Origin: Mycobacterium sp. DL440
GTDB lineage: Bacteria; Actinomycetota; Actinomycetes; Mycobacteriales; Mycobacteriaceae
Assembly (NCBI RefSeq): GCF_011745145.1
Contig: NZ_CP050191.1
Location: 5,658,473 to 5,722,472, forward strand
DNA length: 64,000 nt
Direction of reading: 5' to 3'
Positions within the stretch are counted from its first letter, which is position 1. Each line of letters starts with the position of its first letter. Both the position numbers and the translations under genes were made by a program. Of the stretch, positions 22,378-39,323 are shown in pieces. The notes under the pieces were generated by a model, which was not told where the DNA came from, did not search any database, and worked only from the letters and a program-made list of their open reading frames with translations.

Positions 22378-22392
22378 CGACCTCACAATGCG

Positions 22393-22404: not shown

Positions 22405-22663
22405 ATAGATCACCTAGTGAGATATGACCATACGTGGTCAGGCGGCGGCGTGGAAGCTGGCGGTGGCCCATGGTCGATGGCGGTTCGCATGTGACGATCC
22501 GTGACGTCACCGATCTCGCGAATGTCACCAGGGGGCTCCGAATCCTGGGTTCCCTTGTGGCATTGCGCATCTGGACCGCAGCGGCCGCTTCGTGATTCGC
22601 TCCGAGTAAGGCTTGCCCGATGACTGTGGTTTCGGCGGGCCGGCGCGTTCGCGCCCCCAACGG

Positions 22664-23083: not shown

Positions 23084-24281
23084 GAGCGGATGGTACAACC
23101 GGATCCGCAGTCTCAGTTGTGAATCGCAGCCGTGTGTACACGATGGACACCGTGGGATCCGAGACTGTGCAAGCTCACGAAGGCCCTCCGGCGAAACCGC
23201 CAATCCGCAAGAACATGCCGCGTGAATGGGTCGGGTAGATGTCGTTATACCTGGGGCGAGCAACCCATAGATATCCGACGTGGGGCAGGCCAGGGAATGG
23301 CAGGGGGTCGGCTGCGGAGCTGTCGCGACTACGAAATAGGAACATATTTAATCCTGTAAATGGATAGATGATTTACTAGGCTCGTGGGTGTGCACGCCAC
23401 GCGGGGAACCGCAGTCATTTCTCCACCGGACAATCGCGGCGGTGCCAGATCGGGCCGACTGCGGTGCGGCCGGCCGGGCTCAACGAGCTGGGCGGTGCGC
23501 AGCTGCTCGGTTGCAGTCGCGGCGGCATCGAAATCCGGCGTTGGGCACCCGAGCGGCGGTACCTCGACCGCGCGATGCGGGGTAGGGCGGGGGTTCTGAG
23601 CCTGGCGAATTCCGATTTGAACCGGCCAATCGCATTGACACGTATATCGCGTGGTTGTTCTAAGAACGGTGGCAGAAAGTGGACATCTACTTTGGCGAAG
23701 AATGCGCGCAGCACAGTCTGAACAAAGAAATGCATCAATGGGCATCTAGTCGATGTTAAATGCATTCACAGCAACGGTCGAGTAAAAGGAAATGTCCTTG
23801 CTGTCGACTCGTACCGTAGGGCGCATTACAGCTCGTATCGGAAGAGCGCAGCAACTATTCATGCAGACCGTTGTGCTCCTGATAATCGACAGGTGAGACG
23901 GCAAGCCGGGTACTGTCCAACAGGTCACAGCAGTTACCCAGTGCGCCCGATATCGAGTCAACGCAGGAGCTAAACTGGCGTAACTGCAGGTTGTAGGGCT
24001 GTCGTGAACTTCGGGCGAAACTGTGCTGTCACATGCACCCGCTGCAAGTCTGAGACGGTTCGGCCCAATCGGCACATGACTCCGCAGCAAATTTGACCTA
24101 TCAAACTAGGTGGTCTTGGTGGTCGGCGCCCACGCTAGTCGGCAACAGTTGCTCGTATGGAAAATTGTGGTGTACGGTTCACCCGCAACGCGCTTGTGTC
24201 TCCGATCACAAGCGCCCGGTAGTTTCCGAACTTTAGGCGCGAAGGATTCAGCGATCTTGCCAATCTGGGCGAAGACGGGAG
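23084..24281. other. 1.2-kb stretch with no supported gene
   Basis: Only short frames with biased, shadow-like compositions are present on both strands. Local AT-rich patches occur (around 23335-23380 and 23690-23770), unlike the flanking genes. It precedes the degraded mce remnant and may be eroded sequence or the upstream control region of the former operon. Confidence 0.5.
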
Positions 24282-24650
24282 GTGGTGCTGGTGGTTGGTG
24301 CGCAATCTGTCACCAAGCTGGTTCGCGGCATCGGAGAGTTCTTCGCGATAACACTGGACACGTTGGTCCAGATGGTCAGGCATCCGTGGGCCTGGCGCGA
24401 GTTCGTCCTGCAGACCTGGCGCGTGGCGCGGGTGGCGCTGATGCCGACCATCCTGTTGTCAGGGCCGTCACCGTGCTCACCATCGACGTCCTGCTCGTCG
24501 AGATTGCCGCTGCCGACTTTTCCGGCACCGGAGCGGCGATGGGCACGGTCATCCAGACGGGGCAGATCGTGACGGTGGTGGTGATCGCCGGTGCCGGCGC
24601 GACGATCACGTTCGCTGCCCGCGGTGCGCGGACCATCCGCGACGAGTTCG
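24282..24650 (+). pseudogene. Degraded yrbEA (mce permease) remnant, frameshifted and truncated
   Basis: The first part encodes the N-terminus of a YrbEA-type Mce permease (IGEFFAITLDTLVQMVRHPWAWREF, then WRVARVALMPTILLS). A one-base deletion near 24462-24469 moves the similarity to the next frame, which continues VTVLTIDVLLVEIAAADFSGTG, IVTVVVIAGAGA and ARTIRDE. The similarity then stops dead at about 24650, where another 130 residues would be expected. It is thus the 5' end of an older mce operon, separate from the intact yrbEA at 25473. Together with the mceF remnant at 37229 it frames the intact mce cassette. The GTG at 24282 follows GGGAGG, the likely former start. Confidence 0.8.
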
Positions 24651-24676
24651 GCGCGGGACTGGTGGTCCGTCTGCGT

Positions 24677-25144
24677 TTAGAGCTGGTGGAGAGCGGCTCT
24701 GCCGCGTCGGGCACCGGCGGTGATGACTTCGGAGAGTTCGGCGACCCACGAACTCGACGCCGGGGTGGGGCGCCGGCGGCGACGACCCCTGTGCGCCAAC
24801 GATTTCGCGATCGCAGGGGTGGAATGCGCCGAAACGTTGTGGCCTTTGGGCAAATCGGGCAGAACCTCGTCGCTGACAACGTTTCTCGCGGCGAACACGT
24901 TGATTGTGCCGTTGCGCTTGTCGCCATAGGTCACGGCTCCCGCGCGGCCCGCCTTCATATTCATATGCAGCCCAACAACATCGAAGAACTTGCCTTCGAA
25001 GTCGGGATCGTTGTCAACCTCGAAAATCTCCACCCCCCGCGGCTTGAGATAGTGATCGGCCCGGATCTCGGCGGCGGCGCCCTTGCCGATCCCAACCCCC
25101 GCGACTACTTGCTTTGCGAGCCGACAACGCCGGCACCACAACAT
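24677..25144 (-). other. Unidentified coding-like fragment between two yrbE genes
   Basis: The minus strand holds a 155-codon frame whose first 110 residues look like genuine protein rather than a shadow: WCRRCRLAKQVVAGVGIG, RADHYLKPRGVEIFEVDNDP, KFFDVVGLHMNMKAGRAGAV and INVFAARNVVSDEVLPDLPKG. The C-terminal 40 residues are Arg-rich and look non-native. I do not recognise the family. It abuts the broken end of the yrbEA remnant and is probably a gene fragment brought in or left by rearrangement. The rest of 24651-25472 shows no gene. Confidence 0.35.
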
Positions 25145-25472
25145 CTCCGAGTCGACTCCGCGCCGTCGCGCGATCTACTCATCGACCACCCCATCTCTGG
25201 CCCACAACAGCGCGCGTGCCCGAACTACTCGTCGTTGCGGCAACGACGTCGAGGCAGCCATCCGCTGAAACCCCGCACAAAGCGGGCTCGAACATCGATG
25301 TCGAAAGCGACGAGCGAAGGGAGTCGGTCGGCAATGCTGAGCGCCCACGATGTCGACATGCCGGCCTGCGCGCGGACTTCGTCGCAGAGTGCGTGGACAC
25401 ATACGAACAGACCTGCTGCCCTGGGCGCCAGGGCAACAGTGGTTAACAACGTACCGGAGGGTTGAGTGCCAG

Positions 25473-26405
25473 ATGCCACTGCAGACTAGGCGCGAAGAGG
25501 CCCGTCAGCAGGACGAGGGGGTGTATTCGCCACGCCCTGATGAAGACACCGTCGTCACCAGTGTCCGGCGCGATCGGTCAACCCGGCTGCGCCTCCGCGT
25601 CGCCAAGGCGATAGCGCGCGTCGGTGCTATTCCCGCGCAGAGCGCTGCAACGACAGGGCGCGGTGTACTCCTCGCGGCTTCAGTTCTGCGATACACCGTG
25701 ACTGACACACTCTCGCTGCGGCTCCCTGTAGGTGAGCTTATTCTCCAGGCTTGGAGCTTGCTCAAAGTGACGGCGACGCCGGCAGTGCTGATGGCTATAC
25801 CCATCGGTGCGCTGGTGGCCGTTCAGACAGCGGGCCTCGTCAACCAGATGGGGGCCAGTTCGCTTATCGGTGCTGCCACCGGGATTGGCATCATTCGACA
25901 GGGCGCTCCGATGACTGCGGGCTTGTTAATGGGTGGTGCCGCAGCGTCTGCGATCGCCTCGGACTTCGGGGCCAGGGCCATACGCGAAGAGCTCGATGCA
26001 TTACGAACGCTTGGGATCGATCCAGCACGACGACTGGTTGTACCGCGTTTTCTCGCGCTCATTCTGATTTCGCCGATTCTATGCATAATCGTCATCGCAT
26101 CTGCGGTCGCAGCCTCATACATCATGGGAGTGACGGTCATGGATGTCACGCCCGGAAGTTTCTGGATGTCATTCGGATCATTCGCGAAGATGGTTGATGT
26201 GTGGTTCGCGATGGGTAAGACAGTTATATTTGCTGCGATTGTTGGCGTGATTTCCTCGCTCCGTGGTATGGAAGCCAAGGGTGGCCCGCGCGGTGTTGCA
26301 GATGCGGTGAATTCATCGGTAGTGCTCAACGTTGTCGGTATCGTCATCGTGAATCTCGCCATCACCCAGGTGCAGACAATGTTCTTCCCCACAGAGGTGG
26401 CGTAA
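25473..26405 (+). CDS. yrbEA: YrbEA: Mce-system ABC permease, first subunit
   Basis: The ATG at 25473, after GGAGGG, gives 310 residues. After a charged cytoplasmic N-terminus of about 75 residues come the MlaE/YrbE permease helices. The conserved cytoplasmic coupling region is intact (SAIASDFGARAIREELDALRTLGIDPARRLVVPRF), followed by the family C-terminal part (SSLRGMEAKGGPRGVADAVNSSVV). YrbEA and YrbEB form the membrane channel of the Mce lipid importer and pair with an ATPase (MceG) encoded elsewhere; none is in this window. The next gene overlaps at TAATG. The sequence is far from the yrbEA remnant at 24282, so it is not its repaired continuation. Confidence 0.92.
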   Translation: MPLQTRREEARQQDEGVYSPRPDEDTVVTSVRRDRSTRLRLRVAKAIARVGAIPAQSAATTGRGVLLAASVLRYTVTDTLSLRLPVGELILQAWSLLKVTATPAVLMAIPIGALVAVQTAGLVNQMGASSLIGAATGIGIIRQGAPMTAGLLMGGAAASAIASDFGARAIREELDALRTLGIDPARRLVVPRFLALILISPILCIIVIASAVAASYIMGVTVMDVTPGSFWMSFGSFAKMVDVWFAMGKTVIFAAIVGVISSLRGMEAKGGPRGVADAVNSSVVLNVVGIVIVNLAITQVQTMFFPTEVA

Positions 26406-27277
26406 TGGCGTTGCCGTCGCAGGGCGTTCGGGGGGCGCCATCAGCCCATCTGAGACTGGCTCGTATGCCGATAGGATATCTGAGCCGCACATTCAGAACC
26501 GTAGGGCAATGGGTGGTGTTTATTTCACAGACTTTCTGGACGCTGCCCATAACCGTCCGCCGATATCGGCGGGAAACGCTGAAAGTGATGAATAGTTTAG
26601 CGTGGGGTCGGGGATCGATAATCGTCGATGGCGGGGTGATCAGCGTACTGCTCATCCTCGGTTTCATGCTCGGCGCCATGGTGGCGATCGAAGCCTTTGC
26701 GATCCTGAATCTGGTGGGATTTGGCGCGTTGTCCGGAATCATCGGCGGATTTGCCAACGTCCGGGAGATGGCGCCATTGGTGGCCGGGATCGCCTACGCG
26801 ACTCAGGCCGGTTGCCGGATGACCGCCGAGATCGGTTCAATGCGAATCGGCGATGAGATCGACGCCACCGAAGCAATGGGGCTGCAGTCAATTCCGTTCG
26901 TGGTGGGTACCCGACTTGTGGGCGGTATGTTGTCGGTGGTGCCGGGCTTTATGTTTGCACTGGTGGTCAGCTTCTTTGCTTCCAATGCTGTGATCCGGTT
27001 GTTTTATAATCAGCCGGGCGGTACCTACGATCACTATTTCACGATGTTCCTTTCCACGACAGACGTCGTGTATTCCCTCATAAAAGGTATTGTATTTTGC
27101 ACAGCCGTGACGTTGGTTCATTGCTACTACGGATTTTTTGCTTCGGGTGGACCCGTCGGTGTCGGTGAAGCTTCGGGTCGGGCAATTCGATCTAGCCTCG
27201 TTGTGATCATGGTCCTGGATTTCGCCCTGACCGTAATCATGTGGGGTGTTAAACCGGTCTTCGTGTTCAAGGGGTAG
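26405..27277 (+). CDS. yrbEB: YrbEB: Mce-system ABC permease, second subunit
   Basis: This is a 290-residue MlaE/YrbE-fold membrane protein: IIVDGGVISVLLILGFMLGAMVAIEAF, the coupling segment GCRMTAEIGSMRIGDEIDATEAMGLQSIPFVVGTRL, and a C-terminal part with GGPVGVGEASGRAIRSSLVVI. It has five to six hydrophobic helices. It follows yrbEA with a one-base overlap and precedes mceA, the canonical mce order. Local composition is visibly AT-richer than the flanking chromosome (28 G+C of 60 in bases 27001-27060). Confidence 0.92.
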   Translation: MALPSQGVRGAPSAHLRLARMPIGYLSRTFRTVGQWVVFISQTFWTLPITVRRYRRETLKVMNSLAWGRGSIIVDGGVISVLLILGFMLGAMVAIEAFAILNLVGFGALSGIIGGFANVREMAPLVAGIAYATQAGCRMTAEIGSMRIGDEIDATEAMGLQSIPFVVGTRLVGGMLSVVPGFMFALVVSFFASNAVIRLFYNQPGGTYDHYFTMFLSTTDVVYSLIKGIVFCTAVTLVHCYYGFFASGGPVGVGEASGRAIRSSLVVIMVLDFALTVIMWGVKPVFVFKG

Positions 27278-27287
27278 GTGGATCAGA

Positions 27288-28376
27288 TTGCTATTCCGGA
27301 TGTCGGCGGAAGCCGAAACGCGCAGGCTCACGATTATTGGCGTGGCAGTGATGTCGTGCCTGGCGGTGGCATGTGTGCTTATTGTCATCAACCCATTCGG
27401 CGACCGCATGGCCGACCGGATCTCGATCGTGATGGCTATGCCGTATGTGGGCCAGGGCGTCACTCCGGGAACTGCGATGATGATGCACGGTGTCAATGTA
27501 GGAGAGGTCACCAGTGTTTCGAGCTTGCCTACCGGCGGCGTTGAGCTCAGGGCGTACCTGCAGTCCGGACCTGCTGCGGGTTTGACCGACACACTGAGTC
27601 TTGATTTTCGGCCGGCGAATTATTTCGGCGTCACTGGTGTCAATCTCGTTCCAGGACCGGGCGGGCAAGCTCTACGAGATGGCGCAAAAATCGATACGGT
27701 GCCACGCGGAAACTTCACGCTGCCTACGATGCTTTCTCGTCTGGGTGAGATTACCGACGGAGTGGTGACGCCTCAGCTGATCCACGTCATCGAAAGAGCG
27801 ACCCGGTACACAGACGTGCTCAATCCGCTGATCGAGACAATGGTGATCACAGCCAATGCGCTCACCAAGGTACAGACGGTAAGTACCGAGCAACTTTTGA
27901 GGACCACGACGGGCGTGACCGTGGTGATGCCGTCGTTTGTCGCGACGCTGGCCGACGTGGGCGACAACTTCACCCGTCGTTCGTGCATGAGTACGTTTAC
28001 CGAAAAATGCCTCAAGGGCGTTCCGAACGTACCCCCAGAATTCACTCCCGGTTCAGATATTCCTGAGGAATTTTGGCGTACCAGAGCGATCCCGACGCTT
28101 GATTACGTCTCGGCATCGTTTTTCGCCGCGATCGGAAAACTGGAGTCGTCACATACTGAAGACCTCCTTCCGGCGGTCGGTCTGGTCCAGACGCTGACCG
28201 ATGTGATACCGGGTCTGGTGACACCCGAAAATGTGGGCTCGAGCCTGGTGGAATTGCGAACTCGATTGGAAAAGCTGTATGCCGGATCACCTGACCAGCG
28301 TGCACTGCAGGTGCACATCGTGCTCGACAATCTCCCCGGCGTCGCGGCTCCGATCAGCGCGATGGGGGGTCCGTGA
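27288..28376 (+). CDS. mceA: MceA: Mce-family substrate-shuttle protein A
   Basis: This 362-residue protein has one N-terminal membrane anchor (LTIIGVAVMSCLAVACVLIVI) and an MCE/MlaD beta-barrel domain at about residues 40-120 (YVGQGVTPGTAMMMHGVNVGEVTSV ... LDFRPANYFGVTGVNLVPG). Helical Mce4-like sequence follows. Mce proteins A-F form a hexameric tube carrying lipids through the periplasm to YrbE. TTG 27288 has AGGTGG six bases upstream; ATG 27300 is the alternative. The 3' end overlaps mceB (ATGA region at 28373). Confidence 0.9.
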   Translation: MLFRMSAEAETRRLTIIGVAVMSCLAVACVLIVINPFGDRMADRISIVMAMPYVGQGVTPGTAMMMHGVNVGEVTSVSSLPTGGVELRAYLQSGPAAGLTDTLSLDFRPANYFGVTGVNLVPGPGGQALRDGAKIDTVPRGNFTLPTMLSRLGEITDGVVTPQLIHVIERATRYTDVLNPLIETMVITANALTKVQTVSTEQLLRTTTGVTVVMPSFVATLADVGDNFTRRSCMSTFTEKCLKGVPNVPPEFTPGSDIPEEFWRTRAIPTLDYVSASFFAAIGKLESSHTEDLLPAVGLVQTLTDVIPGLVTPENVGSSLVELRTRLEKLYAGSPDQRALQVHIVLDNLPGVAAPISAMGGP

Positions 28377-29374
28377 TGAAGCCTAGTGGTGCGTTATGGA
28401 GATTTGCGCTGAGCGGCGCCTTCGCCCTTCTGGTGTTTATCGTGATCGTGAACCTTCTCAGGCAGCCAGTTGCGGCCACCACGCGTTCTTACACAGCCGA
28501 ATTCACTGATGTGGCGGGTTTGTATCTCGACTCAGACGTCCGCGTCCGCGGGGTGCGTGTGGGGAAGGTTCAATCCGTCTCGCTTGAGCGCAAAGCAGGG
28601 CAGAGCCTTGCTGCGGTCGAATTCAGTCTTGATAAGCGTTACACAGTAGTGCCTGAGACACGGCTTGCCATCAAATACCAGGTGCTTACAGGGGCGCGTT
28701 ACGTCGATGTCGTTAATCCGTCCGAGGATGCGAACGCAAGCCCTTTGATCAGAGTGCCGACGAACATGACACAGCCATCGTTCGACGTCACGACTCTGTT
28801 CAATGGGCTCCAACCGGTTCTCGCGACATTGAGTCCGCCCGATATCGACAAATTCACGGCGAACGCCGCGGCCTATCTTGCGGGCGACGGCAGTGGCCTC
28901 GGACCGATGTTGGAGAGTATCCGGACGCTGACCAGCTTCGTATCGGACCGGCAGCAGGTGATTGCGACTCTGATGCGAAATCTTGATGCAGTGGCGGGCG
29001 AACTCGGCGGGCACTCCAAAGAGTTCGTCCAAATTCTGGACTGGATAAACCGGCCGATCGACGGCTCACTGACAGTATTGGACGAATTCCGTAAGTCGGA
29101 ACTGTATGGGCCGGGGTTCACGTCTTCGGCTGTAGAACTGTTGCACAACCTGGGATTCAAACCCGGTGCTGATCTCGACGCAGGGCTCGATCGCGCCGTC
29201 ACAGTGTTCGATGACTGGACCGATGCTGTCAAGCGAGTTCCGGTCATGTGGGATAACATCCAGCCCCCTGCGCCGCCGGGTGTGGCGCTGCCGTGTTCGC
29301 ATGGGCCGGCCCAGTTGCCGGAGTTCATGGACGTGCTGCTGAATGGGCAAAAGGTGATCTTATGCAATCACTGA
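28373..29374 (+). CDS. mceB: MceB: Mce-family protein B
   Basis: This 333-residue protein has an N-terminal anchor (FALSGAFALLVFIVIVNLL) and an MCE domain (YTAEFTDVAGLYLDSDVRVRGVRVGKVQSVSL ... IKYQVLTGARYVDVVNPSE). The helical region then runs to a short Cys-containing tail. It shares the four bases GTGA/ATGA with mceA and overlaps mceC by 13 bp. It is part of the hexameric Mce conduit. Confidence 0.9.
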   Translation: MMKPSGALWRFALSGAFALLVFIVIVNLLRQPVAATTRSYTAEFTDVAGLYLDSDVRVRGVRVGKVQSVSLERKAGQSLAAVEFSLDKRYTVVPETRLAIKYQVLTGARYVDVVNPSEDANASPLIRVPTNMTQPSFDVTTLFNGLQPVLATLSPPDIDKFTANAAAYLAGDGSGLGPMLESIRTLTSFVSDRQQVIATLMRNLDAVAGELGGHSKEFVQILDWINRPIDGSLTVLDEFRKSELYGPGFTSSAVELLHNLGFKPGADLDAGLDRAVTVFDDWTDAVKRVPVMWDNIQPPAPPGVALPCSHGPAQLPEFMDVLLNGQKVILCNH

Positions 29375-30333
29375 AAATTTTCAGAAACTCGACGTTCTGG
29401 GGCGTCGCTGCGCTGGTCATGACTGCGGTGGTGGCGACAACAGCAGCGGTGCTCTATATCGACCCTCCGGGATACAAGGCGGTTGTCTTCTACACCGACG
29501 ACGCGGCATCCCTCCATTCTGGTGACGCCGTGAGGATTGCCGGAATAACGGTTGGGAAGGTGAAGAAGCTGTCGATCGAACCGGATCGGGTCAAGGTAAC
29601 GGCAAGTGTGGATAAAGACGCATTTGTTGGTGATCGGTCTCAGGTTCAGGTGCGCATGCTTACGGTGGTCGGTGGTTACTATGTGAATCTTGTACCACTG
29701 GGCGAAAAGTCGCTGGGTAACGGTTCCATTCCGATGGAACGTGTGACGATGCCCTACAACCTGGTGACTACGCTGACCGACGCCACAAAGATCACCGACA
29801 ACGTTGACACTAAGCCTATCCGCGAATCGCTGGATGAGATCCAGCAGGGACTTACCGGAACGAACGTGGAATCGCTCAGGGCGGTGATCGATGCCGGAAA
29901 TACTCTGACTGCCACGATAGGCAAGCAACGGGGACAGATAACTGCGATTCTCGACCTGTCAGACGAATATATCGAGTCGCTGAAGGATTTCCGCGGAGTA
30001 CTCCAGGAGATGGTTTCGAAGATAGCCGTCCTTGAACAAACGCTTGTTTTGTACAGCAAGGGTTTTGGCGCTTCGCTGAGCGGCCTGGGCGACGTGGGTG
30101 ATGCGCTCCTCCGTCCGGTTGAAGAGCTTTATCTCGGAAATCGGGAAGAGTTTCTCCAGCGGGTCCGCGATTGGCAGGACACCGTTAGGAGATGGGCCGA
30201 CAACAACAGCAGGATCATCCCCAGGCTGCGTCGCGTCAGAGACAAGATCGAGCGTGTTCTGGATGCGCAGAACGCTCCACCGGAGTTGCTCGCCACCGAT
30301 TTGTGCATCCCGATGCCAGGAAGTCCGTGCTGA
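29362..30333 (+). CDS. mceC: MceC: Mce-family protein C
   Basis: This 323-residue protein starts at ATG 29362 inside the end of mceB. It has an anchor helix (FWGVAALVMTAVVATTAAVLYI) and an MCE domain (YKAVVFYTDDAASLHSGDAVRIAGITVGKVKKLSI ... VRMLTVVGGYYVNLVPLGEK). A long helical region follows (DEIQQGLTGTNVESLRAVIDAGNTL). It lacks the long Pro-rich C-terminal tail seen in many MceC proteins. Translationally coupled to mceD (TGATG). Confidence 0.9.
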   Translation: MQSLKIFRNSTFWGVAALVMTAVVATTAAVLYIDPPGYKAVVFYTDDAASLHSGDAVRIAGITVGKVKKLSIEPDRVKVTASVDKDAFVGDRSQVQVRMLTVVGGYYVNLVPLGEKSLGNGSIPMERVTMPYNLVTTLTDATKITDNVDTKPIRESLDEIQQGLTGTNVESLRAVIDAGNTLTATIGKQRGQITAILDLSDEYIESLKDFRGVLQEMVSKIAVLEQTLVLYSKGFGASLSGLGDVGDALLRPVEELYLGNREEFLQRVRDWQDTVRRWADNNSRIIPRLRRVRDKIERVLDAQNAPPELLATDLCIPMPGSPC

Positions 30334-31433
30334 TGGCCGAAGTAGTGGTTCGACCCAAGTTGCGCATTGCTTTTGCTCTGCTCACCGCTGTTGTAACTGT
30401 CGCCGGGGCATCGTCCTGCGCCGTATCGAGGGGTTCCGCGGAGACCGGATATTGCGCGATCATGCCGGACAGTGTCGGTTTGTACGTAGGAAACCCGGTC
30501 ACCCAGATGGGCTACCCGGTTGGCAGAGTCACATCGATCGCTCCCCAACGAATGAATGTTCGCGTCGAATTTTCCGTGGACCAGAGCCGGCCTCTTCCCG
30601 GTGATGTCAAGGCGGTTACCCGATCGCCGTCGCTCCTTGCCGACCGCGCGCTGGAACTGGTCGGCAACTACAACGGGGGTCCGCGGCTCGTTGCCGGCAG
30701 CTGTATAAGCCTCGACCGCGCCGCGACACCCAAAAGTTTGTCTCAGGTGATCGGATCGGCGACCACATTTCTGAACGCGATCAGTCCCGACGACTCGTCG
30801 AATATCGGTGACACTGTTCGTGGGATCGATCAGTTGGCACACAATAATGGCGCGGCCGCGAATCAGTTGCTCACCAGCACGTCAGCACTGCTCGATAGTC
30901 CCGACAAGGCGGTCAGCGATGTCGGTTCGATCGTGAGCAATCTTGCGCAACTGACGACGACGCTGAAAGACATCAGGGGCCCAATGAAAGAGGCTCTACT
31001 CGATGCAGTCAAGACCACCCCCGACATGGCGACGGCGCTGGAGGGTACCCACCGACTCGCTTTGCCACTCGCGGAGTTCCTCGTGATGACTGCTGACGTG
31101 GAGAAGGAGTTGGGTGACGAGACGCAGCTGACGCTGGACACGGTGAGCGCCACCGTAAGAAAGCTGAGTCCCCACGCCAACCGGTTTGCGGATCTGCTCA
31201 ATCCGGTGCCGTGGTGGATCAACACCGCAGCTAATCATTTTAACCAGCGTCAATTCCATACTTTCAACATCGCCTATCGGCCACCGATGTTTCGGATTCC
31301 GACACACGACGGGCTTGCCCTCTGCGGTTTCATGAACGCCTCGACCCCCGGAAGTTGCGCCGACGTCCATGGTCAACCCTATGCGGTGGATGTCGCGTTG
31401 CTTCAGTACGTGCTCACGCAGGCGAACCGATGA
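30333..31433 (+). CDS. mceD: MceD: Mce-family protein D, with a lipobox
   Basis: This 366-residue protein starts at ATG 30333, overlapping the mceC stop. The N-terminus is a signal sequence ending in a lipobox-like AGASSC (Cys30), so it may be lipid-anchored rather than membrane-spanning. The MCE domain follows (YCAIMPDSVGLYVGNPVTQMGYPVGRVTSIAP ... LLADRALELVGNY), with a C-terminal helical part ending near HTFNIAYRPPMFRIP. In the standard scheme only MceE is a lipoprotein, so a second lipobox is noteworthy. It overlaps mceE at ATGA. Confidence 0.87.
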   Translation: MAEVVVRPKLRIAFALLTAVVTVAGASSCAVSRGSAETGYCAIMPDSVGLYVGNPVTQMGYPVGRVTSIAPQRMNVRVEFSVDQSRPLPGDVKAVTRSPSLLADRALELVGNYNGGPRLVAGSCISLDRAATPKSLSQVIGSATTFLNAISPDDSSNIGDTVRGIDQLAHNNGAAANQLLTSTSALLDSPDKAVSDVGSIVSNLAQLTTTLKDIRGPMKEALLDAVKTTPDMATALEGTHRLALPLAEFLVMTADVEKELGDETQLTLDTVSATVRKLSPHANRFADLLNPVPWWINTAANHFNQRQFHTFNIAYRPPMFRIPTHDGLALCGFMNASTPGSCADVHGQPYAVDVALLQYVLTQANR

Positions 31434-32428
31434 GCCGTTGGATGCGGTCGGTGGGTGCCGCGGTTGGGGTTATGTTGCTGTCATCGTGTGCGTCGATCAC
31501 CGTTAATTCGCTGCCCCAACCAGGTGGCAGCTACCGCGACGGCTACAACATCGTCATGGAGTTCGCCAACGCACTCAACCTGCCCGACCGGGCAAAAGTA
31601 ATGATGGACGGCACCACCATCGGGGTCGTTACCGGAGTCAATCTCACCGGGGATCACGTCGACCTTACTTCGCGGATCGATTCAGCAGTGGTGGTGCCGT
31701 CGAACGTTCAGGCGACAATGCGGCAAGCGACCGTCCTCGGCGATATTTATGTCGAGCTCGAACGCCCGCAATCGGGTGACGGGGTAGCTACCGCTGTCGG
31801 CCCGGAGGGAAGGATTCCCATGGCGCAGACGACGTCTCCTCCTCAGCTTGAGGACACGATCGCGAACTTGGCGAATTTTGTTGGCAGCGGGTCTATCCAG
31901 CGCGTTCAGAACACGATTATCGGCCTCAACCGGGTTACTCCGCCGGACCGTGGTGAGCTCCGCCAGATGGTGACGCGTGTTGCCACCGATCTCTCGGATG
32001 TAGCCAACAATATCGATGTCGTAGACAAATGGCTTGAAGGTGCAGCGGGGACAGCCGATGTCATGAACAGGAATCTCTCTTCATTTAGCTTTTGGTTCTC
32101 ACCCACCGGTATGCGGGGTTGGGACCGTGCTACACAGGTCGGCGTTTACGTAGGAACCCTGCTTCCGTCCATCGGGAGCGTCTACAGTAGTGGATTCTGG
32201 TTGGTGCCGATGCTGAATTCGACCGCCAAAGCGATGGGTGCTGTACAGCAGACCAAATGGGCATTCGAAGGCGAAGAATATGAAGCATGGCATAAGCTGT
32301 TCACGAATAACTTCCTTCCGGTGGACAAGTACCCGGCAATAAACATTACGTCGATAGTCGGGCCCGACGGGCGCGAACTATCTGGCAATGTTCAGGATGT
32401 GCTTCGAATCCTGGGGGCGACACCATGA
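31430..32428 (+). CDS. mceE: MceE: Mce-family lipoprotein
   Basis: This 332-residue protein starts at ATG 31430, overlapping the mceD stop. The signal MSRWMRSVGAAVGVMLLSSCAS has a clear lipobox with Cys20. The MCE domain (YNIVMEFANALNLPDRAKVMMDGTTIGVVTGVNL ... QATVLGDIYVELERP) and long helical domain are typical of MceE/LprK-type subunits. It sits before mceF in canonical order with an ATGA overlap. Confidence 0.9.
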   Translation: MSRWMRSVGAAVGVMLLSSCASITVNSLPQPGGSYRDGYNIVMEFANALNLPDRAKVMMDGTTIGVVTGVNLTGDHVDLTSRIDSAVVVPSNVQATMRQATVLGDIYVELERPQSGDGVATAVGPEGRIPMAQTTSPPQLEDTIANLANFVGSGSIQRVQNTIIGLNRVTPPDRGELRQMVTRVATDLSDVANNIDVVDKWLEGAAGTADVMNRNLSSFSFWFSPTGMRGWDRATQVGVYVGTLLPSIGSVYSSGFWLVPMLNSTAKAMGAVQQTKWAFEGEEYEAWHKLFTNNFLPVDKYPAINITSIVGPDGRELSGNVQDVLRILGATP

Positions 32429-33375
32429 CCATAAAAAATGTGCTGTCGTTCGCGGCGTTCGGATTAATTATCGTTTTCGCGATCGGCTACCTCGGGTCAT
32501 TTGGCTTGAGGGTCGGAGCACCCGCCGGTACCAACTTGTCCATGGCGATCTCCGATACCAATGATCTCAACGTGGGCGCCAATGTGCTGCTGCGCGGTGT
32601 ACCGGTCGGCAAGGTGACCAGGATCGAGTCGGGCGTCGAGAGCGCTACCGTCGATTTCTATGTCGACGCCGCCTACGACATCCCGGTCGACAGTGACGTT
32701 CACATAGAGAACCTGTCCGCGCTGGGCGAGACGTATATAGGGCTGAGTCCACGGACGAACGAGGGACCGATGTTGAAGGACGGTCAGCGCATCGCCACCG
32801 AGTCGGTAACGTTGCCTCCTTCGATCTCGCAGCTGGCAACCAGCGTGGTCCGGGTGCTCAACCAGCTCGACCCCGACCAGCTCAAGCGGATCCTCAATGA
32901 GGCCGACGCGGCTCTGCCGGATCCTGTGGCGGTGGAGCCTAACTTGGCTCGGGCAAGCATGCTGCTCAACAACACCGCAATGGGTATGCAGGGTCGGGGG
33001 CAAGAGGTACTGGGGAACTTCCAGCTCCTGCTGCAGAACGCGGGCTGGGTGGGGCCGGCGCTGGCGGATGTGCAGCAGCCGCTCCGTAACCTGAGTGTGG
33101 GTCTACGTGATTCATACAACATGTTGGCAAGAGCCGCCATTTGGGATAACCCGGAAACCATCAAGCAGACCGGATATCTGCTCGACCGATTTCAAGCCTT
33201 TTTGGACACCAGAGGCCCTGACATCAAGGTTCTGTCGGAAGCGTTGTTGCCAAAGTTTGAGGGCATCGGGGGCGCGTTGATGAATTTTGATAGCGCACAG
33301 ATTCTAACAAATATGTTGTCGGCCTATCCTGAAGATGGCGCAATAACCCTGCACGTAACCATTCCGGAGGGTTAA
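32425..33375 (+). CDS. mceF: MceF: Mce-family protein F, short form
   Basis: This 316-residue protein has an N-terminal anchor (VLSFAAFGLIIVFAIGYLGSFGL), an MCE domain (NLSMAISDTNDLNVGANVLLRGVPVGKVTRIES ... IENLSALGETYIGLSPRT) and a helical region. It lacks the roughly 200-residue Cys/Pro-rich C-terminal extension typical of actinobacterial MceF; such an extension is what survives in the remnant at 37229-38047. It is the last of six coupled mce genes. Confidence 0.9.
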   Translation: MTIKNVLSFAAFGLIIVFAIGYLGSFGLRVGAPAGTNLSMAISDTNDLNVGANVLLRGVPVGKVTRIESGVESATVDFYVDAAYDIPVDSDVHIENLSALGETYIGLSPRTNEGPMLKDGQRIATESVTLPPSISQLATSVVRVLNQLDPDQLKRILNEADAALPDPVAVEPNLARASMLLNNTAMGMQGRGQEVLGNFQLLLQNAGWVGPALADVQQPLRNLSVGLRDSYNMLARAAIWDNPETIKQTGYLLDRFQAFLDTRGPDIKVLSEALLPKFEGIGGALMNFDSAQILTNMLSAYPEDGAITLHVTIPEG

Positions 33376-33414
33376 TTCGGGCGCCGCCGGGGTAATAAGT
33401 AAGGAGGAAAGCAA

Positions 33415-34080
33415 ATGATCATCACCAACGACCAAGCCGAGAGCGCGACATCTGCATCTGGAGTGTCCGACGACGAGACCGAAGCGGAGGCGACGGACTC
33501 AGCGATAATTGAGACAACGGGGACGGCTGAGGATCAACCGAGGCCCGAGAAAGCGCGTGCGCGGATATCAATGTCCGTGCGATCGTTGGTCCTCGCCGTC
33601 GCAATTGGCATACTGGCGATCGCAGTTGGCGTGCTGTCATGGTTATTGATCGGCGCTCGTGCCGAGCTTGACGCAAAAGCTCGTCAGGCCGCCAACTATG
33701 ACCGCGCCGAGGAGATGGCTCTCGACTATGCGGTGAATGCCGCGGAGATGGACTACAAAGACCTTAACGGCTGGAAAGTGAAGCTAGTGAAAGGTACTTC
33801 GCCAGAATTGAAGGAGAAGTTGACCAAAGCAGCCAACTCCATGGAGCAGATTCTTGTGCCACTTCAATGGAATTCCGAGGCGCGGCCACTGGTGGCGAAG
33901 GTGCGCTCGGACGTTGGGGGAGCCTATGTCGTCGACTCGTTCGTCACAGTGCTCACCAAGACTATGCAAGCGCCTGACGGTCTGCAGTCCACTGCAACGT
34001 ACAGCGTCACCATCGACAGCAATAACGATTGGCAAATCAGCGATGTGGGCGGGATCGATGCCGTCGTGGGTTCAAAATAG
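33415..34080 (+). CDS. Mce-associated membrane protein (Mas)
   Basis: This 221-residue protein begins with an acidic, disordered N-terminus of about 50 residues (Glu/Asp/Thr-rich). It then has a single transmembrane helix (LVLAVAIGILAIAVGVLSWLLIGA) and an extracytoplasmic NTF2-like domain (AEEMALDYAVNAAEMDYKD ... VDSFVTVLTKTMQ ... VTIDSNNDWQISDVGGI). This is the usual Mas architecture found after mceF, thought to stabilise Mce transporters. The ATG has a strong AAGGAGGAAA ribosome site. Adjacent lower-GC codon usage matches the mce genes (33 of 60 in bases 33601-33660). Confidence 0.85.
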   Translation: MIITNDQAESATSASGVSDDETEAEATDSAIIETTGTAEDQPRPEKARARISMSVRSLVLAVAIGILAIAVGVLSWLLIGARAELDAKARQAANYDRAEEMALDYAVNAAEMDYKDLNGWKVKLVKGTSPELKEKLTKAANSMEQILVPLQWNSEARPLVAKVRSDVGGAYVVDSFVTVLTKTMQAPDGLQSTATYSVTIDSNNDWQISDVGGIDAVVGSK

Positions 34081-34103
34081 CGAGATGCGTCGAACGGAAT
34101 GGG

Positions 34104-34733
34104 ATGCATATGCCAAGTAGAGGTGTTTTCAGCAGATGCTGTCTTTACCGAGGTGCTATCGGGGTAGCGTGTGTCTTGTTTTTGCTCCCTGGACTTGCCA
34201 GTGGCCGTGCGGCAGCCGATCCGCGTGCAGACGATGTGCCGGCCCCTCCGCTGCCGGTATTCACGCCCACCCCGAGTAATTGGGAGCCGCAATTCCCATT
34301 CCCATATGACGAAATGCGGAACAGCATTACACCTGCGGATATCGATGCGGAACGGGAAATGTGTCAGTGGTTCAATGCTCAATACGGTGATTTGAGACTG
34401 CAGATTGAGAAAGTCAACAACAGTGTCGTCCGTAGTAACGGAAATTTCAATGCCGAGGGCATTCCCCAGCAAGTCGACGCGGTCATAGCGAATATTGACC
34501 AGTCAGTCGAGTTCCTTACTCCACGAGCCCAGGTCCTGACCCAGAGTCAAGACTTCGCAGGGGACGTGTATTTCCCGCTCTACCAGGGCGAGAGCTTCTA
34601 TGGACTCTGGCAGCAGCTGTCTAACGTCGGTAACGGCCTTAGGGTTCGCCAGCCGAACTGGTTCACAGGTCCATCGTTTCAGCGGGTGAAGCATTGGGGC
34701 AGCAAGATCGATCGATCCCATGTCTGTCGCTGA
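34104..34733 (+). CDS. Secreted Mce-cassette accessory protein
   Basis: This 209-residue product has a Sec signal (YRGAIGVACVLFLLPGLASG ... AAADP) and a Pro-rich start to the mature chain (PAPPLPVFTPTPSNWEPQF). A helical domain follows (TPADIDAEREMCQWFNAQYGDLRLQIEKVNNSVV) with Cys and Trp residues. I do not recognise a named domain. Position directly after the Mas gene suggests it serves the same transporter in the cell wall. ATG 34110 is an alternative start. Confidence 0.7.
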   Translation: MHMPSRGVFSRCCLYRGAIGVACVLFLLPGLASGRAAADPRADDVPAPPLPVFTPTPSNWEPQFPFPYDEMRNSITPADIDAEREMCQWFNAQYGDLRLQIEKVNNSVVRSNGNFNAEGIPQQVDAVIANIDQSVEFLTPRAQVLTQSQDFAGDVYFPLYQGESFYGLWQQLSNVGNGLRVRQPNWFTGPSFQRVKHWGSKIDRSHVCR

Positions 34734-34805
34734 GCACCGCAACTCACTGCGTCAACGCCGCCGATAAGCGATCAGCAGCACCCGCTTCGACTAGGAGGAC
34801 AGATA

Positions 34806-35306
34806 GTGAGAGGTGATCCCGATATCGGTGGGGCAGTTCGACTTCGCACGCGAATGGTAGCCAATGCGGCTACGGTGACCGTGACGACGGTCGGCATTTG
34901 TATGCTGCTCGCGCCGCCGGCGGCCGCTGACCCTGATCAGAATTTGCAGGATGCCGTGGCTTCGGCGCGTGGTACTGCATGCGGGCCGTTGACATACGAT
35001 CCGGTTGCGGAACACGCAGCCGATATCGTGAACCGCGCAACGGACGAATACATGAGCCACACGGCCCGGAATGTCCCGATCGATGACGCTATGCCGATCC
35101 TGAAAGATCTTGGTAGCGGCGCGGGTAAGGCGGTCCGGCTACAGGGTGCCGGCCACAATTACAATGACGGTGATGCTATCAAGGGCGTGTTATTGGAGGG
35201 GTACAAGGCGATCCCCGATTGCTCTTATACCGACTTCGGCGTAAGCCTCCGGCACAATGTGGATACAGGTGACAGCATCGCCGTGGCCATCCTGACAGGG
35301 CCGTGA
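34806..35306 (+). CDS. Secreted CAP-like mycobacterial protein
   Basis: This 166-residue protein starts with GTG after AGGAGGAC. It has a signal peptide (ANAATVTVTTVGICMLLAPPAAA) and a mature part resembling short CAP/SCP-superfamily proteins of mycobacteria: ASARGTACGPLTYDPVAEHAADIVNRATDEYMSHT, then YKAIPDCSYTDFGVSL with two Cys that could pair. Catalytic residues of CAP proteases are not evident. These proteins may bind sterols or lipids, which would suit a lipid importer, but that is inference. Confidence 0.65.
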   Translation: MRGDPDIGGAVRLRTRMVANAATVTVTTVGICMLLAPPAAADPDQNLQDAVASARGTACGPLTYDPVAEHAADIVNRATDEYMSHTARNVPIDDAMPILKDLGSGAGKAVRLQGAGHNYNDGDAIKGVLLEGYKAIPDCSYTDFGVSLRHNVDTGDSIAVAILTGP

Positions 35307-35385
35307 CATTACGGGACAAATTGACCGCATGGCGTGGCTTCGCGGTTGTGGCCAATTCGACCATCGCAGGTTGCAGGGAGGTTAC

Positions 35386-35778
35386 ATGCTGCGTGTCGCA
35401 GGATTTATGGTCGCCGGGATTACCGGATACGCCTCAGTAGTTGTAAACCCGCCCGTTGCGCGGGCCGATGATCTGGTCACGTATGAAGTGATCTCTGACC
35501 AGATTGGGATGGCGAATATCGAATACCAGGATTCGACCGGGCGCATATTCGCGCAGAACATAGTGCTTCCATGGCGAGCTGACGCTACGGTGCATGCGGC
35601 ACGTGATGCACCGCCGGACGGTAGCCAGGTCCGCGCGGACTGGCGTCCGGTTGCCGGACCGTCGAAGTGGGTGACGGTGCGCATCTCCTATGAGGGCAAA
35701 GTCATTTGTGAAAGCACTCTCGACGTCGGAGATGCCACTTGCTACGGCATCACACCGCATTTTCCCGGGCGTGAGTGA
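35386..35778 (+). CDS. MmpS-like secreted protein
   Basis: This 130-residue protein starts with ATG after GCAGGGAGG. It has a signal or anchor helix (VAGFMVAGITGYASVVV) and a small beta-sandwich domain like MmpS accessory proteins of MmpL exporters (LVTYEVISDQIGMANIEYQDSTGR, QNIVLPWRA, VTVRISYEGKVICESTLDVGDATCYG with two Cys). No mmpL gene is adjacent; association with the mce cassette is an unusual context. Confidence 0.6.
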   Translation: MLRVAGFMVAGITGYASVVVNPPVARADDLVTYEVISDQIGMANIEYQDSTGRIFAQNIVLPWRADATVHAARDAPPDGSQVRADWRPVAGPSKWVTVRISYEGKVICESTLDVGDATCYGITPHFPGRE

Positions 35779-36132
35779 CTTCGCGGCCTCGCGCTTATTT
35801 TCCCACCGTCTGGACGTTGGACAGAGAGCAGGCCGCGGCGCTGGAACGCTGCCGCGATGTATTCGTCTGTATTCGTAGACAGGTTAGGGCATGCTACATG
35901 CGCCCTGCTACCGGCACATCAGCCAATCCTTGCCGACCTCGGGATAAACGCGGGCCTGCTAAACCAAAAACCCTTACTCAGGCGTGAAATGCACCGTAAG
36001 TGTGCTGCTGGCACACCGCGGAGGCTCACGCCACTTCCGGTGTTGCACGTTCGTTACGTCGCGCTGCCAGCGTAAGTGAATGCGGACTAGGGCGACGAAG
36101 CCCTCCCAGGCTTTCCATCACCGACCCCTGAA
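35779..36132. other. Short gene-poor stretch with a possible ORF fragment
   Basis: A 70-codon frame from GTG 35775 overlaps the previous stop and begins SRPRAYFPTVWTLDREQAAALERC, which looks like a real protein start or fragment but matches no family I know. Beyond about 35890 it turns into low-information sequence. Nothing else is supported. Confidence 0.3.
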
Positions 36133-36702
36133 TTATCGGTAGCATGGGCCCCCGGTATCCGGGGGGCTACACGATGCCGGCCCCAGGGTCACCCAACTCA
36201 GATCCATCCAAGGAGCTGACAGCCAGGTCTGGGTGGGCTCGATCACGAAACGGAGCGGACCGCGTTCACAGTAGGTTTTACTGTCCGGTGTCACCGCACA
36301 GGTCGTCCCTTCGTGCTTGATGAAACTGCGCGGAGGCAGCGGCCGTTCCGCCTGTGTGGCAGGGAACCGTGCAGCCACCGACCAGTCATAGTGCATTGCC
36401 CGGTCTCCGTCGATCCAGCCAATATGACTGACTCCTGCCGGGGCTCCGGGAATAGCGCCAGCGCAACCGAAATCGCCTCTGCCCCAAATGCCGCAATTCT
36501 GTCCCGTCGGGGAGAGGAACCACACTCCGCCAGGAACCGCGAAGGTGCCGGCGTCGAGCCGATCGTAGTACCGGATGTCTGGATAAGGGTCAGGCGCTGC
36601 GGCCGGTGGCTCGGCGTGAGCCGTCACCGGGCTGCTCAGTGTCAAAACGGCTATACCTACGGCCGTCATCAAGGTGCGCCAGGGACGACTCGTTTTCCAC
36701 AT
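36133..36702 (-). CDS. Secreted protein of unknown function
   Basis: The ATG at 36702 gives 189 residues: a signal peptide (TLMTAVGIAVLTLSSPVTAHA), then a mature domain with conserved-looking aromatic and Cys positions (FAVPGGVWFLSPTGQNCGIWGRGDFGCAGAIPG, TCAVTPDSKTYCERGPLRFVI, ASCSPPDTGGPCYR). Six to eight Cys suggest disulfides. Proteins of this kind occur in many mycobacteria with no known role. It is oriented against the mce cassette and lies near its 3' border. Confidence 0.65.
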   Translation of the reverse strand: MWKTSRPWRTLMTAVGIAVLTLSSPVTAHAEPPAAAPDPYPDIRYYDRLDAGTFAVPGGVWFLSPTGQNCGIWGRGDFGCAGAIPGAPAGVSHIGWIDGDRAMHYDWSVAARFPATQAERPLPPRSFIKHEGTTCAVTPDSKTYCERGPLRFVIEPTQTWLSAPWMDLSWVTLGPASCSPPDTGGPCYR

Positions 36703-37228
36703 GCTCCTATTATGAACGAGATCGCCCGCGCAGGAAGGGATCTCTGAAAGGTAATTGGTCAGGCTCTCGTAGCGCACTGGGGACGGCGAGTATCGCGGCA
36801 ACGGCGCGGTTAGCGATCGGAGCGCGCATTACAGCACCGATTCGTCGTAGTGGTCGGTGCTCTACAGCGCGTCGACGCGATACGGTGTGCCCCCGGCGTT
36901 CTCGATTCACTGGGTAAGGCATCGCCGGCAACCGGATCCCCAAGGGCGCCGTCGCCACGATCAGGGCTGATCATCGCCTAAAGCCGCGAAAGGCCGAGAT
37001 ATTCAAGGTCAGCAATTTGAGAAGGAGTTGGTCGATGACGTTGGCCTATACAGAATCCACCTGCGCGGGCAGTGGTGTTCTGCTTCGATGAGATGACCCA
37101 GTGTCTGAACCGTCGTGGTCTGGATGGAGACCTCGGGTAGGACCATAAGCGGAGGTCAGGGATGTGTACTGACTTCCCTCATCGCAATGATGCACAAAAT
37201 CCGTTGTAGTGAAACGGAAGTCGGTCCT
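36703..37228. other. Junction region between the mce cassette and the mceF remnant
   Basis: No gene of normal length is supported. An 18-codon frame with a ribosome site (AAGGAG, ATG at 37035) stops at once. Recognisable MceF sequence begins only at about 37229, although its frame stays open back to 37115. This is the probable 3' recombination joint. Confidence 0.45.
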
Positions 37229-38047
37229 GCGACGGGTGAACAGCGCCTGCTCGAGAACCATCTGGCCACGGTCACCGGGCAACTGAAGGACAAGGATCAG
37301 GCGGTGCGGGGCGTTTTGCAGAACGCCGCGCCGGCAGTCGGCGAGGTCCGTGCCCTGTTCGACAGGTTGCAGCCGACACTGCCGGTGATCCTGACCAACC
37401 TGGTGGCCGTCGGCGAGGTGGCCGTCACCTATCAGCCCGACCTGGAACAGCTGCTGGTGCTGCTGCCTACCGGTACGGAAGCCATCCAAGGTGCCATCAT
37501 GGCTAACCGAAATACCAAGCAGGACTACAAGGGCGGCTATCTGAGCTTCAACGTCAACGTCAACCTGCCGCCACCGTGCACCACCGGCTTTCTGCCGACA
37601 CAGCAGCAGCGGGCCGCAAGTTTCGAGGACTACCCCGACGCCCCGCCGGGTGACCTGTACTGCCGGGTGCCGCAGGACTCGACGCTGAACGTGCGCGGTG
37701 CGCGTAACACGCCATGTGAGACGCGTCCGGGAAAGCGGGCGCCGACGGTGGCGATGTGCGAGAGCGACGAGAACTATGTCCCGCTGAACGACGGGTTCAA
37801 CTGGAAGGGCGACCCCAACGCAACATTGTCTGGTCAGACGGTTCCTCAACCACCACCGGGAACGCCGGGCTCGACCGCGCTGCCGGCACCGGCCGCGGCA
37901 CCGCCACCCCCTATCGCGGTGGCGAATTATGACCCGGCAACAGGGACGTACATCGGGCCTGACGGCAAGGTCTACACCCAAGCCAATCTGGCCCACGATG
38001 CAAAGGATCAAACATGGCAGACGATGCTGATGCCGCCGACGCAGTGA
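37229..38047 (+). pseudogene. mceF remnant: C-terminal part of a second, higher-GC mce operon
   Basis: The frame encodes only the C-terminal 270 residues of an MceF: KDQAVRGVLQNAAPAVGEV, the LEQLLVLLPTG helix, then the extension CTTGFLP, LYCRVPQD, VRGARNTPCETRPGKRAPTV and YVPLNDGFNWKGDPN, ending in a Pro-rich tail. The signal/anchor and MCE domain that should precede it are missing, so no functional Mce protein can be made unless an unusual short product starts at GTG 37115. Base composition is chromosomal (41 of 60 G+C in 37381-37440), unlike the adjacent cassette. It runs directly into its own Mas genes, so this is the original 3' end of the ancestral operon. Confidence 0.85.
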
Positions 38048-38595
38048 GTGCGTCAAATGGTGCCGTTGAGGATGAAGTGGCGGCCGACGCCGCTACCGAC
38101 GCCAAACGCTCGATTTCGCCCCCACGACTGGCGCTCGTGGTCGGGCTCGTCGGTGTCGTGGCGCTGGGTGGCCTGTCAGGCTGGCTCGGTTTCCGCGCCT
38201 ACCAGTCTCACCAGGACGAGAAGGAGCGCGAGCTGTATCTGCAGGTCGCCAGACAAGGCGCTCTGAACCTGACCACCATCGATTTTCAGCATGCCGACTC
38301 CGACATTCAACGCATCCTCGACTCCGCAACCGGCCAGTTCCACGACGAGTTCTCTCAGCGTGCCGAGCCGTTCCTCGAGGTCGTGAAAAAGGCGCAATCG
38401 AAGTCTGTGGGTACGGTGACCGAAGCGGGTCTGGAATCCGTCGCAGGTGATGAGGCCCAGGCGATCGTTGCGGTGACAGTCAACACGTCCAACGTCGGGG
38501 CACCCGAGCAACAACCCCGATCGTGGCGAATGCGCCTCACGGTGCTGAAGATCGGTGAGGACGTGAAGGTTTCGAATGTGGGGTTTGTACCGTGA
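38014..38595 (+). CDS. Mce-associated membrane protein (Mas), ancestral operon
   Basis: This 193-residue protein has an acidic Ala-rich N-terminus, a transmembrane helix (LALVVGLVGVVALGGLSGWLGF) and an NTF2-like outer domain (ELYLQVARQGALNLTTIDFQHADSDIQRILDSATGQFHDEFSQR). The ATG follows AAAGGA and lies inside the end of the mceF remnant (34-bp overlap), the normal coupling of Mas genes to mceF. It is intact although its mce genes have been lost, so it may now serve the inserted cassette. Confidence 0.85.
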   Translation: MADDADAADAVSASNGAVEDEVAADAATDAKRSISPPRLALVVGLVGVVALGGLSGWLGFRAYQSHQDEKERELYLQVARQGALNLTTIDFQHADSDIQRILDSATGQFHDEFSQRAEPFLEVVKKAQSKSVGTVTEAGLESVAGDEAQAIVAVTVNTSNVGAPEQQPRSWRMRLTVLKIGEDVKVSNVGFVP

Positions 38596-39323
38596 TCAAG
38601 CTGAGACGGCATTTCGATGCGGGCGCAACCGGTGAGTCGGCAGCCGACGAGGTCAAGCCGGCCGACGCGGTGGCCACTGAAGCCGATGCCACTGAAGTCG
38701 ATGCGACCGAAGCGATCACCGATCGCGCTGCTGACATAGGTGCAGAGCAGCGCGACGCGCAGTCCGAGGCAGAAGACGACGGTGACGGCGCGAACGCTGA
38801 CGATGACGCGGTGGGAGCGGAGTCAGTCGTCGCGGCAAAACGAATCAACTGGACGCGTGTGCTGGTCTACGGTGTGCTGCCTGGTGTGCTGCTGCTCGGG
38901 CTCACCGCGGGAATGCTGAAGTGGCGAGATTCGACGGTGCGCGCCGCAACGGCCGCAAGTGTTGAATCTGTGCAGGCGGCAAAGGATTCCACTGTGGCAC
39001 TGCTGTCGTACAAGCCGGACAGCGTGGAACACGACCTCGCCAGTGCACGAGACCTGCTGACCGGTGACTTCCGCGACTCATACACTCAGTTGACCGAAGA
39101 CGTGGTGATCCCTGGCTCCAAGCAGAAGCAGATCACCGCTGTCGCAACGATTCCTGCGGCGGCTTCGGTATCGGCGAGCCCGAATCATGCGGTCGTGCTC
39201 GTTTTCGTCAATCAGACCACCACCGTCGGGCAGGACAGGCCGACCGACTCGGCCTCGAGTGTGCGGGTTACTCTCGACAAGGTCGGCGATCGCTGGCTGG
39301 TCTCAGGCTTTGATCCGGTCTGA
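38592..39323 (+). CDS. Mce-associated membrane protein (Mas), second copy
   Basis: This 243-residue protein starts at a GTG overlapping the preceding stop. A 90-residue acidic N-terminus (Ala/Asp/Glu repeats such as VATEADATEVDATEA) precedes a transmembrane helix (VLVYGVLPGVLLLGLTAGML) and an NTF2-like domain (AAKDSTVALLSYKPDSVEHDLASARDLLTGDFRDSY). It is homologous to the two other Mas proteins in this window. Its 3' end overlaps the convergent cysteine-hydrolase-like gene by 21 bp. Confidence 0.85.
   Translation: MIKLRRHFDAGATGESAADEVKPADAVATEADATEVDATEAITDRAADIGAEQRDAQSEAEDDGDGANADDDAVGAESVVAAKRINWTRVLVYGVLPGVLLLGLTAGMLKWRDSTVRAATAASVESVQAAKDSTVALLSYKPDSVEHDLASARDLLTGDFRDSYTQLTEDVVIPGSKQKQITAVATIPAAASVSASPNHAVVLVFVNQTTTVGQDRPTDSASSVRVTLDKVGDRWLVSGFDPV

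Follow-up and report, generated by a model that had tools for sequence, protein, structure and literature searches.

Mce systems are lipid importers that are important in mycobacterial nutrition, and the Mce-associated (Mas-type) genes that accompany them can persist without a neighbouring mce operon, as in the case of LucA and Omam. Xenologous displacement of a gene in situ and composite transposition mediated by insertion sequences (ISs) are likewise known kinds of event. As set out in part of Casali and Riley (2007; PMC1810536), the operons mce1 to mce8 have the order yrbEA, yrbEB, mceA–F with mas genes downstream, mostly in pairs, and the same part gives the standard account, itself inferred, that mce operons go back to a single ancestral cluster and have not been shuffled. 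Two further papers (PMC5487216, PMC6368401) concern orphaned proteins of the LucA and Omam kind. Here we describe an mce locus of Mycobacterium sp. DL440 within a stretch of 64,000 nt (contig NZ_CP050191.1, positions 5,658,473 to 5,722,472), called the window below, to which all plain coordinates refer. The locus shares the eight-gene order, the downstream mas genes and the permease and MCE families with the described operons, but differs in that a whole operon lies within the ruins of another. Most of a native mce-mas operon has been replaced by a foreign mce module, which probably arrived between two IS630-family elements.

Xenologous replacement in situ by mobile DNA is known as such; the form that it takes here is new. 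As in xenologous displacement or composite transposition, a foreign homologous system stands in the resident's place with IS remnants at its borders; unlike in these, the foreign system is an entire transporter, encoded by many genes and belonging to a distant clan, the two ends have decayed unequally, and no inverted repeats or target duplication were demonstrated. Among the titles and abstract beginnings listed from one literature library, there was no report of an mce operon replaced in place.

The left end of the native operon is a 5′ remnant of yrbEA (24279..24664, + strand), broken in its reading frame and cut at about codon 125. It consists of two YrbEA-like pieces in different frames (24279–24467 and 24470–24655), which are 79% and 74% identical in amino acids (aa) to YrbEA of M. 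porcinum (tblastn) and 98% identical in M. peregrinum; its DNA homology to intact relatives ends at 24655–24664, and at 24664 in the case of M. porcinum. At the right end, a C-terminal stub of mceF (37258..38047, +; 91% aa identity to M. porcinum MceF, ratio of nonsynonymous to synonymous substitution rates (dN/dS) 0.096) lies in an open reading frame (ORF) of 37115–38047, within which DNA homology to M. porcinum begins at 37258. The stub has no MCE domain match in Pfam, and its match to the MCE model TIGR00996 is confined to the tail (positions 216–289 of 291). Next to it are mas1 (38014..38595, +) and mas2 (38592..39323, +), both intact, open and with orthologs at this site in relatives. The native flanks are a gene at 22664..23263 (−), 90% identical in aa to its M. 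porcinum counterpart, which lies beside an intact yrbEA there, and an isochorismatase-family gene (39303..39923, −; PF00857), which served as the anchor of the site. A preliminary description of this DNA, made from the sequence alone, had named a frameshifted yrbEA 5′ remnant and a C-terminal mceF remnant with its own mas genes as the two ends of one operon with its interior missing. Both remnants are real, with the extent of yrbEA corrected to the coordinates above and the mceF homology beginning at 37258 instead of 37229.

A relative with the unbroken operon at this site, which the same description had proposed to look for, does exist. The genomes nearest to the window among those examined were M. 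peregrinum DSM 43271 (G201) and M. porcinum IP141460001 (G165). By tblastn of window pieces, the M. porcinum site carries, in this order, the left-flank gene, YrbEA, YrbEB, the mce genes, Mas1, Mas2, the isochorismatase and a cytochrome P450, and its native operon genes translate without stops. Window and M. porcinum DNA are collinear at 90% identity over 20000–24664 and at 88% over 37258–38041; between 24664 and 37258, the only match listed is 41 bases long. The window thus lacks 8.47 kb (L036 5119–13587) that M. porcinum has in its native operon, and carries 12.6 kb (24665–37257) instead, so that the middle is indeed missing. Between the isochorismatase and P450 genes, M. porcinum also has a 506-aa ORF (L036 16350–17870), where the same two genes are ∼130 bases apart in the window.

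Further copies of the native operon occupy the site in M. duvalii (G109), Mycobacterium sp. AZCC_0083 (G315) and others, and complete yrbEA-to-mceF sets were present in six loci (L036, L037, L039, L041, L091 and L096). With M. porcinum proteins as queries, native mce genes and the isochorismatase anchor were found in one locus, 0 to ∼9 kb apart, in 25 of 40 fetched loci. The 40 include three genomes twice, one locus without the anchor (L038), one with another arrangement (L104) and many that end at the 10-kb flank or at a contig end. In quick trees, computed without bootstrap, both yrbEA pieces grouped with G165, G109 and G315 in a five-member set (Shimodaira–Hasegawa-like approximate likelihood ratio test (SH-aLRT) 95), and the mceF stub fell into a set of eight rows, all others of which come from this site (SH-aLRT 97). 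Rows L093–L095 of the YrbEA tree are probably YrbEB matches, because these loci end before yrbEA. In both trees, the remnants were separate from the window genome's own paralogs. Judged by these comparisons, the two remnants derive from one native operon, each being nearest to the same site orthologs by tblastn and in the trees, which agrees with the single mce family proposed for them earlier. In the Mas1 and Mas2 trees, the window row belonged to no well-supported set, and Mas1 leaned towards two further genomes, G020 and G352 (91).

The module itself comprises two MlaE permeases, six consecutive MlaD/MCE proteins (PF02470 over cut-off in mceA–F) and five accessory genes, which bears out the complete yrbEA-yrbEB-mceA–F cassette with a short MceF that had been described. 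The cassette yrbEA (25473..26405, +, with a predicted start in an ORF that opens at 25350) and yrbEB (26405..27277, +) match MlaE (PF02405) with E 7e-56 and 1e-52, and have dN/dS values of 0.07 and 0.05 against M. peregrinum. They are followed by mceA (27288..28376; MlaD E 1e-5, barely above the cut-off at 26.1 vs 25.1 bits; dN/dS 0.11 against M. peregrinum), mceB (28373..29374), mceC (29362..30333), mceD (30330..31433), mceE (31427..32428) and mceF (32425..33375), all on the + strand and with MlaD matches; the starts of mceA, mceC, mceD and mceE are predicted. MceF is 316 aa long, was matched over 313–316 aa in other carriers and has a plasmid homolog with a coding sequence of 954 bp, so its shortness is apparently a trait of the cassette family.

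Downstream on the + strand, an accessory gene without a Pfam match takes the mas position (33415..34080), followed by three more at 34104–34733, 34806–35306 and 35386–35778 (starts partly predicted; dN/dS 0.13–0.25). The last cassette gene (36133..36801) is inverted in the window, lying on the − strand. We compared the module with 22 other carrier loci, which are 20 genomes, mostly top-ranked by module DNA match, and two plasmids, and hence not a random sample. All 13 module genes were found in 22 of 22, all in the same direction, including the gene in the mas position, the three that follow it and the gene that is inverted in the window. In M. peregrinum, this last gene is on the same strand as the isochorismatase gene, as in the window.

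Remnants of an IS630-family transposase mark both borders of the replaced stretch. On the left, a degenerate DDE_3 transposase remnant (24662..25168, −; 36.5% identity over 271 columns to transposase P0122, E 3e-35) ends where the yrbEA remnant ends, as seen by tblastn with the nearest relative. The remnant itself has no Pfam match; of the eight relatives found outside its own cluster for the antisense ORF at 24677–25144 within it, seven, P0122 among them, carry DDE_3 (PF13358), and plasmid DNA matches of 72–120 bases at the left border fall in features annotated as IS630 family transposase. On the right, tblastn revealed the N-terminal part of a second IS630-family transposase (36936..37152, +), with pieces at 36936–37104 that are 67–88% identical to P0122 and an extension to 37152 with P0123. 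The same IS family is therefore present at both ends, in two remnants that are oppositely oriented and face outward with the cassette between them. The same query did not detect this IS630 in the fetched loci of the 22 other module carriers, and a search of six genomes yielded no complete copy; a 48% relative lies elsewhere in M. peregrinum. No long repeats stood out at the borders among the repeats listed, and the best 25 of 41 inverted pairs from a general repeat scan included no clear border-to-border repeat. A native promoter possibly kept for the cassette, as had been suggested, is unsupported, since the decayed yrbEA and the antisense IS630 remnant lie between promoter and cassette; a crude promoter scan found no sigma-70-like site, which is weak evidence with 0.5 expected by chance. 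The window contains no tRNA or known RNA as an insertion site.

Globally, module DNA was matched (E 1e-20) in 134 of 368 scored genomes of the genus, the window's own included, mostly at 64–74% identity. This count includes partial and perhaps paralogous matches, and the 368 were scored out of 396 drawn from a larger genus group. M. porcinum has a related module elsewhere (C25) in addition to its native operon, with 61–73% aa identity in the yrbE and mce genes. Members of the family are also plasmid-borne. The M. avium plasmid pP7a, which is mobilizable, and the M. branderi plasmid pJCM12687 each carry one, with enoyl-CoA hydratase and dioxygenase genes nearby; on pP7a the dioxygenase genes are of the ring-hydroxylating type, and AMP-binding genes are near as well. 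These plasmid neighbours suggest that the module may import a lipid or aromatic compound.

The GC content is 57.6% in the cassette, compared with 66.6% in the yrbEA remnant, 64.7% in the mceF stub, 62.4% in the mas genes and 63.5% in the window. The contrast between cassette and remnants had been pointed out before and stands, but GC alone does not prove foreignness: in five other carriers, M. peregrinum aside, the cassette family has 60.7–63.9% GC and is 1–3 points under the rest of its locus in all five, which weakens the argument. Movement of the cassette from elsewhere in its own genome (6.38 Mb in a single contig, with 21 YrbE (MlaE) matches, one of them partial) was rejected, as YrbE was only 30–43% identical in the ten other mce loci fetched. 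Carriage by a phage was rejected as well; the cassette MceF as a query gave one weak partial match in 50,697 records. Elsewhere in this genome, a second mce locus is eroded (L046 3630–7506, C1 ∼836.6–840.5 kb), with MCE-domain ORFs, some of them partial, ahead of a YrbE reduced to its C-terminal half.

The left junction, the broken yrbEA and the cassette are all shared with M. peregrinum, which aligns to the window in one piece over 20000–35798 (92.5%). Among 119 genomes, a set without M. porcinum, only M. peregrinum matched the whole left-junction stretch (98% over 1,780 bases). A relative with the same cassette had been named as a point against a replacement; it does not refute one, given the intact operons in other genomes. 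The event probably predates the split of the window and M. peregrinum lineages. Against M. peregrinum, the cassette genes have dS values of 0.24–0.49 and dN/dS values of 0.05–0.25, and three right-flank genes have dS values of 0.32–0.46, which fits shared ancestry and purifying selection; the module is under purifying selection. Divergence from M. peregrinum is uneven: 23000–25575 differs at 2.0% of sites and the cassette beyond at 9.0%, with the change to ∼9% located at 25548–25577, inside the cassette yrbEA. From 17.5 kb on, the left flank is 94–100% identical to M. peregrinum per 500-base bin, and up to ∼22.5 kb it is 96–99% identical to M. porcinum, a pattern that probably reflects recent exchange between cassette carriers. 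Taken by itself, the segment 17500–22500 is 94–100% identical to both species vs 80–91% in the right flank, probably owing to a recent exchange among the three species.

The 3′ end of the M. peregrinum cassette lies close to the edge of its contig, where there is a DDE transposase; the last cassette gene is on a second contig, where ISL3-type and IS3-type transposase genes precede it and the isochorismatase gene directly follows. By Pfam domains, these contig edges (L064 93–2263 and L063 3–431) carry ISL3-type, IS3-type and DDE_Tnp_1 transposases, and may perhaps be an insertion hot spot.

The two native ends differ in their decay. Against M. porcinum, their proportions of synonymous differences (pS) are similar, 0.30 for yrbEA and 0.29 for the mceF stub, whereas the ratio of nonsynonymous to synonymous differences (pN/pS) is 0.42 for yrbEA (bootstrap 0.25–0.67) and 0.13 for the stub (0.07–0.19; Fisher p = 0.002, from rounded counts). 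Intact reference pairs gave 0.07 and 0.09 for yrbEA, and 0.20 and 0.27 for the C-terminal part of mceF. The dN of the stub to M. duvalii, 0.127, equals that of the intact M. porcinum gene. In mas1, the window is closer to G020 and G352 (dS 0.6) than to M. porcinum (1.4), and the stub is closest to M. porcinum.

In searches for mas and mce genes that covered this site in M. peregrinum, G020 and G352, the native mas genes were absent from the site in M. peregrinum. The retention of native mas genes, as described before, therefore holds for the window, where they are intact, but not for the same site in this relative. G020 and G352 (L033 and L034) have the mas pair without native mce genes in the fetched stretches, except for a short mceF stub, which starts at the same place in both and has three stops in G352. 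Between these two genomes, mas1 and mas2 have a dN/dS of 0.20 at dS 0.63–0.66 and no stops. A Mas pair can thus be orphaned and still persist under selection after its operon is gone, and unlike for LucA and Omam, the loss of the partner operon is visible in G020 and G352, and partly in the window.

We regard it as probable that a foreign mce module, arriving between two IS630-family elements, disrupted the native mce-mas operon, which is widely conserved. Most likely, the IS630-flanked module would have inserted into yrbEA, because the left IS remnant abuts yrbEA directly. A later IS-adjacent deletion, from the right-hand IS into mceF, would have taken out 8.5 kb of native operon, as suggested by the loss of the C-terminal half of that IS, and an additional rearrangement may have flipped the last module gene. 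The module would act as a full lipid importer of the Mce type, from a distant mce clan and with its ATPase supplied in trans, as MceG/Mkl is in other Mce systems, and the net effect would be to swap one transporter's substrate range for another's. The transporter swap of the preliminary description is thereby upheld as a net replacement, while one clean swap is too simple, given the unequal decay and the inverted last gene.

Several observations weigh against this reading. The closest MceA outside the window's own cluster (12 members at 90% clustering) is 76% identical and lies on one 2.7-kb fragment, and thus points to no particular donor. The right IS630 is fragmentary, and terminal inverted repeats and a target duplication were not identified at the eroded IS ends. 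The high left-flank identity to both species shows recombination, which blurs dating, and the two M. peregrinum contigs with cassette and right flank would have to adjoin. In addition, the yrbEA remnant, unlike the mceF stub, has the look of an old pseudogene, so that one step may have come later, contrary to a single old swap; the stub may have been truncated later, refreshed by recombination or kept under selection.

The age of the yrbEA remnant, with its pN/pS of 0.42 compared to 0.07–0.09 in the two intact pairs, would also be expected if two independent events had occurred, that is, if the native operon had first decayed by deletion and the cassette had landed later in the ruins. G020 and G352, which have lost the native operon at this site and have no cassette in the 20 kb fetched, provide examples of such a loss. 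We nevertheless consider this sequence of events unlikely, as native remnants, both associated with a piece of the same IS family, lie on either side of the foreign block, and as the substitutions in the stub do not make it look old. A rather unlikely course is that the operon was intact until recently and that left flank, yrbEA remnant, IS and cassette were imported as a preformed block from an M. peregrinum-like donor, with the right crossover in mceF. It would account for the step from 2.0% to 9.0% divergence, for the lack of excess aa change in the stub and for the mosaic right side, where mas1 is nearer to G020 and G352 and the stub nearest to M. porcinum. The similar dS of cassette and right-flank genes, however, is as expected for shared ancestry, and the left flank resembles M. 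porcinum too, so this sharing is not cassette-specific. Beyond the odd structure itself, nothing speaks for an assembly artefact or chimaera, which is highly improbable in a single-contig genome and was rejected for the left junction by the independent copy in M. peregrinum DSM 43271. These readings overlap in probability; apart from the artefact, they all have the net replacement in common, and what separates them is the order of events and the route.

Together with its intact M. porcinum counterpart, the locus documents the in-place replacement of an mce operon by a module that is also plasmid-borne, with IS630 as the likely agent. Beyond the preliminary description, we found the IS630 border remnants, five accessory genes, the inverted last gene, the sharing with M. 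peregrinum and the plasmid-borne family. Along with G020 and G352, the window illustrates how Mas genes can lose their operon and nevertheless remain under selection. A broader and rather doubtful generalization is that mce operons are interchangeable modules, one taking over the site of another, with the Mas pair uncoupled and kept under selection for other Mce systems and the mceF stub perhaps a free-standing selected protein; if true, it would provide a visible route to orphan Mas genes.

Further upstream, the stretch at 15228–16487 is multi-copy in relatives, with three places in G020 (85–86%), and includes an ORF (15343–16407) without a Pfam match. It is located near a synteny break, and 5.9–15 kb of the window matches other places in relatives.

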